A stretch of 64,000 nucleotides of DNA from the NCBI RefSeq assembly GCF_018986435.1, contig NZ_JAHMIN010000001.1, positions 27,003 through 91,002 of the forward strand, given 5' to 3'. The stretch comes from Hahella sp. HN01. GTDB lineage: Bacteria; Pseudomonadota; Gammaproteobacteria; Pseudomonadales; Oleiphilaceae. Below the pieces are notes generated by a model. The model saw only the letters and a program-made list of their open reading frames with translations, was not told the origin of the DNA and did no database searches. A program made the position numbers and the translations under genes. Of the stretch, positions 14,087 to 16,201 are shown piece by piece (positions within the stretch are counted from its first letter, which is position 1; every line of letters begins with the position of its first letter).

Positions 14087-14500
14087 ATGACCCAAGTAAA
14101 AAATCGCCAATTGCTGGCTAAAACACTTTATGTCAATGCAGCCCTTTCACTGCTTCTGGCGATTGATCTGATACTGTTCCCATCCTGGTTCGCGGCCAAG
14201 GTGGGCGGACTGGCGACAGAGGTTTACATAGGATTAGGTATAGGGCTGGCGATATGGGCGGTGGATGTTTTTCTCGTTGCGCGCTCTCCCGCCTGGCAGG
14301 ACAAGTTTTCAAAGTGGATTGTTTATCTCGACTGGGCCTGGGTGCTGGCCAGCGTGCTGGTGGTTGCGGTATTCAGCAGCAGCTTTTCGGGGCTTGGCTT
14401 GTTTCTGATCATCGCGATCGCGCTAGCGGTGACAATACTTGCGCTGCTGGAACAGTCCGCAATAGGTAGGAACGAGACGGTAGGAAGTGCTAGAGTCTAA
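14087..14500 (+). CDS. Small four-helix membrane protein
   Basis: 137 residues from an ATG preceded by AATCAGGAGAAG. Four strongly hydrophobic segments span roughly residues 10-37, 45-68, 79-101 and 103-127, with short polar turns. It resembles uncharacterised small integral membrane proteins but I cannot name a family. It is divergent from, and probably controlled by, the XRE regulator. It ends about 30 bases before the terminator of the first small RNA gene, which is transcribed towards it. Confidence 0.75.
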   Translation: MTQVKNRQLLAKTLYVNAALSLLLAIDLILFPSWFAAKVGGLATEVYIGLGIGLAIWAVDVFLVARSPAWQDKFSKWIVYLDWAWVLASVLVVAVFSSSFSGLGLFLIIAIALAVTILALLEQSAIGRNETVGSARV

Positions 14501-14530: not shown

Positions 14531-14662
14531 ACAAAAGGCGCAGCTTCCCAGCCGCGCCTTTCGTATATCCCTATAATCCCTGACCGCTTCCTACGGTTAA
14601 GACATCATCCTTGTTGCATCCCTGCTTCCCAATCCCTGGGTGTTCGCTTTCGTCTCCTTACG
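14531..14662 (-). ncRNA. CsrB/RsmZ-type regulatory RNA, copy 1 of 3
   Basis: Read on the minus strand, this ~130-base segment contains nine GGA motifs in contexts typical of CsrA/RsmA targets (AGGGATG, AAGGATG, TAGGAAG, AGGGATT, TGGGAAG). It ends in a hairpin AAAGGCGC-GC/GC-GCGCCTTT (14534-14561), whose loop also carries a GGA, followed by TTTTGTCTTT. A -10 box TAATAT lies at 14669-14674 and a GacA-type element 43 bases further upstream. Such RNAs soak up the translational repressor CsrA/RsmA. No open reading frame fits it. It is about 90-95% identical to copy 2, located 235 bases away. The start site is inferred. Confidence 0.75.
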
Positions 14663-14668
14663 ATTCAC

Positions 14669-14674
14669 ATATTA
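14669..14674 (-). promoter_or_regulatory. -10 box (TAATAT) of small RNA copy 1
   Basis: TAATAT on the minus strand, placed so that transcription would begin near 14662. The equivalent hexamer occurs at the same distance from the upstream element in copies 2 and 3. Confidence 0.55.
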
Positions 14675-14717
14675 CGGATTCATGGGGCGCCACAAAATAA
14701 GCTTTCTCTGCTTGGCT

Positions 14718-14735
14718 TGTGAGACATTCGCCCAA
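14718..14735 (-). promoter_or_regulatory. GacA-type upstream element, copy 1 (half conserved)
   Basis: On the minus strand TTGGGCGAATGTCTCACA compares with the Pseudomonas consensus TGTAAGnnATnnCTTACA. The central AT and the right arm (one mismatch) match; the left arm is degenerate. It lies 43 bases upstream of the -10 box. Confidence 0.5.
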
Positions 14736-14765
14736 GATCGAAGGAAAAATATCTCCGCCCCAAAA

Positions 14766-14897
14766 ACAAAAGGCGCAGCTTCCCAGCCGCGCCTTTCGAA
14801 TTTCCCTATTTTCCCTGACCGCTTCCTGCGGTGAAGACATCATCCTTGTTGCATCCTTGCTTCCCAATCCCTGGGTGTTCGCTTTCGTCTCCTTACG
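14766..14897 (-). ncRNA. CsrB/RsmZ-type regulatory RNA, copy 2 of 3
   Basis: Tandem copy of the RNA at 14531-14662; the duplicated unit is about 203 bases (14766-14968 against 14531-14733) and includes promoter and upstream element. Nine GGA motifs are kept on the minus strand, including the one in the terminator loop. Substitutions fall mostly between the GGA motifs (for example AGGGATT to AGGGAAA), as expected if the CsrA-binding core is selected. A -10 hexamer TATTAT lies at 14904-14909. The terminator stem is identical to copy 1. Confidence 0.75.
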
Positions 14898-14903
14898 ATT
14901 CAC

Positions 14904-14909
14904 ATAATA
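14904..14909 (-). promoter_or_regulatory. -10 box (TATTAT) of small RNA copy 2
   Basis: TATTAT on the minus strand, in the position matching TAATAT of copies 1 and 3. Transcription would start near 14897. Confidence 0.5.
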
Positions 14910-14952
14910 CGGATTCTCGATGGGCCACAAAATAAGCTTTCTCTGCCTGGTT

Positions 14953-14970
14953 TGTGAGACATTCGCCCGT
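14953..14970 (-). promoter_or_regulatory. GacA-type upstream element, copy 2 (half conserved)
   Basis: Minus-strand ACGGGCGAATGTCTCACA. The same right arm CTCACA and central AT as copy 1 are kept 43 bases upstream of the -10 box, while the left arm has drifted. Confidence 0.5.
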
Positions 14971-15011
14971 GTCTCGTAAGACGATGTCGTTTTCCCCGTA
15001 TTGCGCCCTTA

Positions 15012-15142
15012 AAACGCAAGAAGGCGCAGCATTCCTTGCTGCGCCTTGAGATTTGAACGCTTCCCTTGCCGATTCCTATGGCTGTTCATCGTCCTTGTCG
15101 CTTCCTTTCCTCGCATCCTTACGTCCGTCAGTGCATCTTGCG
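15012..15142 (-). ncRNA. CsrB/RsmZ-type regulatory RNA, copy 3 of 3 (diverged)
   Basis: A third, diverged member immediately upstream of the other two. The minus strand carries eight GGA motifs in about 130 bases (AAGGATG, GAGGAAAGGAAG, CAAGGACGATG, TAGGAAT, AGGGAAG, and AAGGAA in the terminator loop). CAAGGACGATG resembles the repeat of Pseudomonas RsmZ. It ends with a perfect ten-base-pair stem AAGGCGCAGC/GCTGCGCCTT (15021-15047) and a CTTGCGTTTT tail. A -10 box TAATAT lies at 15149-15154 and a well-conserved GacA element at 15198-15215. Because its regulatory element is the best of the three, it may be the ancestral gene. Confidence 0.78.
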
Positions 15143-15148
15143 GGTTAA

Positions 15149-15154
15149 ATATTA
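15149..15154 (-). promoter_or_regulatory. -10 box (TAATAT) of small RNA copy 3
   Basis: TAATAT on the minus strand, exactly 43 bases downstream of the GacA-type element, as in copies 1 and 2. Transcription would start near 15142. Confidence 0.55.
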
Positions 15155-15197
15155 GTAATCTTGAGAAGCGAAAAAAATACTATATGTCTGCTCTACG

Positions 15198-15215
15198 TGT
15201 AGGAGATATCTCACA
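15198..15215 (-). promoter_or_regulatory. GacA-type upstream activating element, copy 3
   Basis: Minus-strand TGTGAGATATCTCCTACA matches the GacA/UvrY consensus TGTAAGnnATnnCTTACA at all but two specified positions. It is an 18-base dyad upstream of an RNA gene of the class GacA is known to activate, just beyond the end of the WG-repeat gene. Confidence 0.7.
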
Positions 15216-15232: not shown

Positions 15233-16201
15233 TCAACGGGTTTCAATTACTTTGGTACAGGCGGCTTTCGGCTCAGGATTGTTCAGCTCCAGACACATGC
15301 GTTTACATCTGACGCTGGTCGCCACAGCCGGCTCGCTCTCGCAGTCAAAGGTCACCGCCACAGCAGCGCCGACAACCTCTCCCACACGATGCTGGTCGCC
15401 TTCAAAAAAGAGGGCGCCAGCGCCGGATACATCGATAATCGCCCACTGCTGTGGCTTGTCTATGGCCAAGACTGTCGCGTAACCAGAGGAAAACTCCCCA
15501 GCATAATAAAACTGCGGTGATATGGCCCATTCGCCTTTGTTGTTGATATATCCCCACAATGTATCCGAACGAGCGGGAGCCAACCCATCAGAAAAGCGGC
15601 CCGCCACCTGAATCTTGCGGGGTACGGAAGCCACGCGCAAGCCCTGCTCATTAATGATCCAGCCCGGCTCAGTGATGTCCTCACTCTCCGTCTCCACATA
15701 GGCCAGGCCTTCGCTAAAACTGGTAATGCGTGAGAACTGAGGCGCCAGCAGCAGACGGTCTTCATCCAGGTTAAAAAACCCCCATTTGCCGTTGTAATTG
15801 ACGGCGACAATAGCGCTATGAGGAGTAATTTCTATGTGGTCATACACCAGCGGAATAACAATCTCACCGCTATGGTTGATCGCCCCACAACCCAAGCGCC
15901 CCATTTGTCCTACAAGACATACCTGCGCATAGGCGCCAATAAAACCGTCAACGCAGCGATCAAACCAACGGTCGCCAACTGGCAGTCCCTCCAGGGAACG
16001 ATACCGGCAGCGACCTTCGCGTAGCTCTTGCTCATACCCCATATCGAACTGAATTTTATCGTCACAACGAGGCGCGTTGTCTGTGACTTCACATTGCAAC
16101 GTGGAAACATCCACCACAGAGGGCGCAGCCCATACCTGGGAGCATATGCTGATCGCCAACGAGGCGGCTAAGCCGATGCAGGACAAGACCCTCTTCAACA
16201 T
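15233..16201 (-). CDS. Secreted WG-repeat protein
   Basis: 322 residues. The N-terminus has a basic start and a hydrophobic core (LSCIGLAASLAISICSQVWA) followed by AAP, a type I signal peptide. The mature part contains WG beta-propeller-like repeats: KWGFFNLDED, LWGYINNKGEWAISPQF and QQWAIIDVSG, each next to a F/Y...G.A.V strand. Such proteins are usually exported and of unknown function. Several cysteine pairs (CRYRS...CVDG, CLVG...CGA) suggest disulfides in the periplasm. The ATG is two bases after the alanyl-tRNA editing stop; an alternative GTG two codons upstream overlaps that stop by four bases. Either way the genes are coupled. Confidence 0.8.
   Translation of the reverse strand: MLKRVLSCIGLAASLAISICSQVWAAPSVVDVSTLQCEVTDNAPRCDDKIQFDMGYEQELREGRCRYRSLEGLPVGDRWFDRCVDGFIGAYAQVCLVGQMGRLGCGAINHSGEIVIPLVYDHIEITPHSAIVAVNYNGKWGFFNLDEDRLLLAPQFSRITSFSEGLAYVETESEDITEPGWIINEQGLRVASVPRKIQVAGRFSDGLAPARSDTLWGYINNKGEWAISPQFYYAGEFSSGYATVLAIDKPQQWAIIDVSGAGALFFEGDQHRVGEVVGAAVAVTFDCESEPAVATSVRCKRMCLELNNPEPKAACTKVIETR

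Follow-up and report, generated by a model that had tools for sequence, protein, structure and literature searches.

Three tandem GGA-rich units in Hahella sp. HN01, predicted as GacA-controlled, CsrA-sequestering small RNA genes

Why do bacteria keep many similar CsrA-sequestering RNAs? This question is raised by a gap of about 730 bases in the genome of Hahella sp. HN01, which lies within the 64,000-nucleotide stretch of DNA analysed here (the window) and runs from the stop of a plus-strand ORF at 14500 to the end, at 15233, of a gene for a WG-repeat protein (Pfam PF14903). An original prediction, made from the sequence, held that this gap was free of protein-coding genes and that it contained three tandem minus-strand RNA genes of a type that titrates CsrA/RsmA. 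Synteny, the positions of the GGA motifs, promoters with GacA boxes and the presence of CsrA, GacA and a BarA-like kinase in the genome all agree with this view, and we consider it very probable that the three units are separate GacA-controlled, CsrA-sequestering small RNA genes of the CsrB/RsmX/Y/Z functional type. RNAs of this kind are familiar; the new detail lies in three copies in a row, two of which have altered switches.

Three GGA-rich units in a protein-free gap

The absence of protein-coding genes was borne out, as none of the five ORFs within or reaching into the gap gave a Pfam match at E ≤ 0.1, and a coding function for the gap was discarded on these grounds. A phage link was likewise discarded, since blastn of the region against a phage collection returned no match. 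The three predicted RNA genes, which like all features described below in the gap lie on the minus strand, occupy 14531..14662 (unit 1; 132 bases, nine GGA), 14766..14897 (unit 2; 132 bases, nine GGA) and 15017..15142 (unit 3; 126 bases, eight GGA), in line with the units of about 130 bases and eight or nine GGA that had been expected; the plus strand of the units contains no GGA. Folding placed a strong 3′ hairpin with a GGA-bearing loop in each unit, as also foreseen: at about 14532-14563 in unit 1 (GGA in the loop), at 14767..14798 in unit 2 (loop GGGA) and at 15021..15047 in unit 3, where the hairpin with its loop GGA is followed by an interrupted U-tract (CTTGCGTTTT). A scan with a terminator consensus flagged units 2 and 3 and not unit 1. 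The folds of units 1 and 2 contain three further, smaller hairpins, each with a GGA loop. Against shuffled sequences the fold z-scores were -4.5 for unit 1 and -3.5 for unit 2, and unit 3 folds weakly better than its shuffles (z -1.9).

The density of GGA was dropped as proof of membership of this RNA class, being mildly above that of shuffles and weak alone. With the units drawn as 130, 140 and 134 bases (units 1, 2 and 3), the observed count was reached by 385, 586 and 410 of 20,000 mononucleotide shuffles, and the window holds 30 one-strand clusters with at least seven GGA per 130 bases, the three units among them. Strongly beyond chance are the positional conservation of GGA and the promoter signature described in the next section. 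Alignment A1 comprised 24 of the 25 copy stretches; that of G024 was omitted because it lacks the promoter and the 5′ part. GGA was the most position-conserved triplet among these 24 copies from seven genomes: 107 GGA occurrences fell in columns common to at least 18 of the 24 rows; the runner-up triplet, GCG, which belongs to the terminator stem, had 42, and two GGA columns were present in all 24 rows, although the aligned rows are related and their conserved GGA are therefore not independent events. Several GGA stand at conserved places, some of them in hairpin loops. Removal of three near-identical rows left 21 of the 24 for a second alignment (A2) and for the covariance model R1. In the RNAalifold consensus the terminator has 10 pairs, five of them with two-sided changes. 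Covariation beyond the terminator is slight: the consensus contains one further three-pair stem, in which a single pair shows two-sided changes, and no other pairs.

The Rfam covariance models that had been put forward for confirming the units did not recognise them at threshold. The best score was 28.9 bits, obtained by unit 2 with RF00166 (PrrB_RsmZ; E 1.3e-4; gathering 44); unit 1 reached 20.5 bits (E 0.023), and unit 3 gave no RF00166 match up to E 10. By its own threshold the units are not members of RF00166. The units resemble this family in that they align with it over the full length and have several GGA hairpins and a terminator; they differ in falling below its gathering score. All of Rfam, including the CsrB, CsrC, RsmX and RsmY models, gave no match to the window at gathering; the same was true of the 14 loci with copies, six of which remained empty even at E ≤ 0.1. 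With scores below gathering, Rfam was discarded as proof of membership, and since these RNAs lie below its thresholds, Rfam-based annotation would overlook each of the seven genes found with model R1 (see below).

The proteins with which such RNAs would act are encoded in the genome. A single CsrA-family match was found (NCBIfam CsrA, 121 bits; cut-off 73), and its gene adjoins one read as an aspartokinase gene. The response regulator directly upstream of uvrC matched the UvrY/SirA/GacA model NF007018 with 315 bits (cut-off 280). A BarA/GacS-like sensor kinase with an sCache_4 domain scored 620.5 bits for BarA as a 664-residue fragment, the cut-off of 890 referring to the full length. CsrA and a GacS/GacA pair are thus present, the kinase being scored on a fragment.

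Further copies and a common promoter signature

Model R1, built from 21 copies, gave seven strong matches in the HN01 genome (G000). Five of them belong to its training set, namely the trio (111.0, 113.9 and 116.7 bits for units 1, 2 and 3, all training members) and the copies s1 and s2, while p1 and p2 lie outside it (E 1.2e-18 and 1.1e-14). Copies p1 and p2 form a tandem pair on contig C44 (L054 1354-1481 and 1668-1797), 314 bases apart and each with its own GacA box; they follow the gene for a NarX/NarQ-like kinase, and gacA-uvrC lies about 33 kb away on the same contig. On contig C2, s1 and s2 (L023 2558-2682 and 5808-5932; about 3.25 kb apart) flank an operon for a marine sortase-target protein and a class GN sortase. 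Two copies at an equal spacing of about 3.25 kb were also seen in each of G001, G002 and G005. By these matches, the trio is part of an expanded family that numbers at least seven predicted genes in the genome.

A published Gac box consensus reads TGTAAG-N6-CTTACA (PMC11837529). Unit 3 is preceded by a putative GacA box, TGTGAG-N6-CCTACA, at 15198..15215, which matches 10 of the 12 consensus positions (5/6 + 5/6), and 43 bases past it by a -10-like box, TAATAT, at 15149..15154. Units 1 and 2 have the right half only. Upstream of unit 2 the half box CTCACA lies at 14953..14958 (left half lost, 0/6), with TATTAT 43 bases past it at 14904..14909; upstream of unit 1 CTCACA lies at 14718..14723 (left half lost, 1/6), with TAATAT, again 43 bases on, at 14669..14674. 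The three TAATAT/TATTAT boxes are those that had been noted originally.

For a relaxed box, TGTRAG-N6-CYYACA, the 7.13-Mb genome has four distinct sites, and the reversed control has one. Three of these sites lie upstream of unit 3, of a C44 copy and of a GGA-rich candidate on contig C61; the fourth is on contig C69 (L068 about 1345-1362), where no RNA was seen and where the box-like sequence, placed in a long inverted repeat, is probably a terminator and not a GacA site. From the copies themselves we derived the signature ATNTCYYACA-N43-TANTAT, which has six sites in the same genome, all at copies (units 1, 2 and 3, s1, p1 and p2); s2 is missed because its spacing is 44. Over seven genomes of the genus the signature has 30 sites and its reversed control none. 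R1 model matches follow 28 of the 30 sites, and one site precedes 12 GGA in 300 bases. The site on contig C113 of G003 (L079 about 75-140), a palindromic GacA box with TAGTAT at 43 bases, has no recognisable RNA downstream (six GGA in 300 bases) and perhaps marks another GacA target.

An unrestricted search for the best GacA-box match in each upstream region was abandoned, because for units 1 and 2 and several other copies the match lay at an unrelated position and its score was often equalled by shuffles, and was replaced by a table at fixed spacing in which the better of the spacings 43 and 44 was taken for each copy (n = 27; p1 and p2 from their own genome only). The copies of G003, G012, G024 and G006-C64 were omitted from it because their matched part begins farther from the promoter or because they are longer. 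The right half before TANTAT keeps three to six of its six positions in 27 of 27 copies, at a spacing of 43 or 44. In G000, G001, G002 and G005 the box of unit 3 is 5/6 + 5/6 in four of four genomes, and the seven copies of units 1 and 2 all have 0-1 of 6 in the left half and 5/6 in the right. G004 and G006, with one syntenic copy each, have boxes of 4/6 + 6/6 and 5/6 + 5/6, respectively. Elsewhere, s2 has a weak left half (1/6) in four genomes, and the left half of s1 is 3/6. The U-tract of unit 3 is interrupted in all four genomes. The new detail of this locus is that units 1 and 2 are fixed with a half box, and that unit 3 combines a nearly complete box with a poor U-tract.

Origin of the array and its possible output

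The RNA genes occupy a syntenic place with the order AlaX-like, WG-repeat, RNA, small membrane protein and HTH protein. This place holds three copies in each of G000, G001 and G005, two in G002, and one in each of G004 and G006; G003, of the same genus, has no DNA match to the region and a single R1 match among other neighbours. The neighbouring proteins are 87-97% identical to those of the window in G001, G005 and G002, and 38-66% in G004/G006. The simplest order is from one copy to two and then three, although loss of a copy in G002 could take the place of stepwise gain. We take the array to be the product of tandem duplication inside one genus. Units 1 and 2 form a repeat with the originally described period of 235 bases and with 92% identity over 207 bases; the duplication is common to three separate genomes and so is not recent at the level of the strain, and the claim that it is recent holds in a relative sense only. 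Unit 2 of G000 and unit 1 of G005 have an upstream variant in common, and this patchwork of upstream variants suggests exchange between units 1 and 2. The genus thus offers a natural series of one, two and three copies at one syntenic place, and a single locus offers a built-in comparison of a copy with a fuller box and copies with half boxes.

The supposition that a tandem arrangement is unusual as such was not supported. In a sample of 99 genomes from a single genus, presumably Pseudomonas, RF02144 (rsmX) matched above cut-off in 63, and at least 16 of the 99 contained two rsmX no more than 1 kb apart on the same strand; no three rsmX within such 1-kb steps were seen in the 99 genomes under the stricter filters used, which make these tandem counts lower bounds. 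In Pseudomonas brassicacearum rsmX-1 and rsmX-2 have been described as a tandem pair, and potential tandem rsmX pairs are mentioned for P. fluorescens F113 and P. stutzeri (PMC7911923). The passages on such RNAs in PMC7911923 and PMC4211561 name only pairs, with the exception of the streptococcal csRNAs, of which there are 2-6 copies, distal or tandem (PMC4211561). The rsmX pairs and the published pair make tandem copies an established arrangement, of which a row of three is the less common form. The positions of the Rsm RNA genes of P. aeruginosa clash with a tandem layout. Four Rsm RNAs of this species are nevertheless called 'organized in tandem' in a passage of PMC11837529, and we therefore do not present a triple as unpublished. 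On the Rsm RNAs of Hahella or Hahella chejuensis, the titles and abstract openings of the papers listed yielded nothing.

CsrB and CsrC are longer than the units described here and contain more GGA. In E. coli they are RNA antagonists of CsrA (PMC4211561), the role predicted for the units, and differ from them in that the window has no Rfam CsrB match. Azotobacter vinelandii resembles HN01 in having many GacA-dependent Rsm RNAs that act on RsmA (RsmZ1-7 and RsmY), whereas a tandem layout is not stated in the relevant passages of PMC4824345. A close parallel is the P. brassicacearum pair, a GGA-rich Rsm RNA of about 110 bases duplicated in tandem with a mutated box upstream of the second copy; it differs in comprising two copies, in belonging to the rsmX sequence family and in that expression was shown there, where we rely on sequence. 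Expression of rsmX-2 is 8-fold lower, for which its authors consider that mutations in the upstream GacA sequence may be responsible (PMC7911923). On this analogy, expression of units 1 and 2 may be weaker than that of the copy with the fuller box.

We infer from the sequence that the units are transcribed, that they are bound by GacA and CsrA in the manner outlined here, and that they exert a dosage effect. In this scheme, phosphorylated GacA would attach to the unit 3 box and, less strongly, to the half boxes of units 1 and 2, and would switch on transcription from the TANTAT promoters. Each RNA of about 130 bases would terminate at the hairpin it carries, and its GGA sites would retain CsrA dimers, so that CsrA-repressed mRNAs would be freed; the array would increase the dose supplied by a family of at least seven genes. 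Given the half boxes of units 1 and 2, the dosage-based or tuned output of the original prediction is plausible. A more tentative idea is that duplication has produced a graded switch in which unit 3 is the first to respond to GacA; similarly speculative is the part of units 1 and 2 in it, which might respond only at high GacA~P, via a second regulator, or as read-through from unit 3. If this were true, a single locus of about 700 bases would set several thresholds of Rsm output.

Of the alternatives to three separately controlled genes, the one that survives best is that only unit 3 is truly driven by GacA and that units 1 and 2 arise mostly by read-through, as part of a long multi-GGA RNA, or from another activator of the half box. 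The loss of the left half box throughout the seven unit 1 and unit 2 copies, set against its retention at unit 3 in all four genomes, fits this reading, as does the interrupted U-tract of unit 3, and a precedent exists in the tandem PrrF pair of P. aeruginosa, which yields the read-through RNA PrrH (PMC4211561). The retention of the right half box, the 43-base spacing and TANTAT nonetheless suggests that units 1 and 2 have their own promoters, and s2, at another locus, has a similarly weak half in four genomes. We judge this alternative to be improbable, if worth keeping in mind.

Considerably less likely is that units 1 and 2 are decaying duplicates devoid of function. Their half boxes and the variation of copy number among relatives could be read in this way, but all 63 of 63 GGA are kept over the seven copies, and the RNA is less variable than its upstream region (12/132 positions vs 19/75). 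The hairpins are also intact, with the fold z-scores of -4.5 and -3.5 given above. Retention of GGA together with the lower variation of the RNA means that units 1 and 2 are not obviously decaying. For unit 3 the corresponding counts in four genomes are 2/126 and 9/75. Very unlikely indeed is a region without RNA genes, be it a GGA-rich 3′ region or some other structured repeat, since the GGA clusters common in the window and the absence of Rfam matches at gathering are outweighed by the specificity of the promoter signature, the terminator hairpins and the homologous copies that have different neighbours at other loci. Three separate, GacA-controlled small RNA genes remain the most likely reading.

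Longer candidates and related genera

The GGA-rich stretch on contig C61 of HN01 (L067 about 1064-1475) is a candidate for an eighth, larger CsrB-like RNA. It has 15 GGA in 221 bases, a palindromic box that matches the relaxed pattern on both strands, and a hairpin and T run that resemble a terminator by eye; its DNA is 92-96% identical in G001, G002 and G005. Model R1 scores it weakly (15.3 bits, E 0.56), and its promoter differs, as TANTAT is missing at 43 bases. Longer RNA candidates were also seen on contig C64 of G006 (L065 about 2020-2350) and contig C1 of G004 (L077 after 1500), with 14 and 12 GGA per 300 bases, respectively. Both carry the promoter signature of the shorter copies and perhaps form a second size class.

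Across 293 genomes of the order, R1 gave matches in 14, all of which except HN01 itself stayed at 32 bits or below, and RF00166 gave matches in 29 genomes, 12 above cut-off; in both scans the Infernal filters were stricter and 11 candidates were scored for each genome, which makes absence from them weak evidence. In G024 two near-identical R1 copies lie 783 bases apart (L062 1738-1858 and 2521-2641), and contig C20 of G322 (L063) has several copies inside 4.7 kb. As far as these predicted copies indicate, amplification has also taken place in a related genus. In another family of the order, contig C5 of G121 (L058 about 1480-2260) contains two tandem GGA-rich RNA candidates. Two RF00166 matches, 463 bases apart, both fall inside these GGA-rich stretches, and a TGTAGG-N6-CTTACA box lies between the two candidates.
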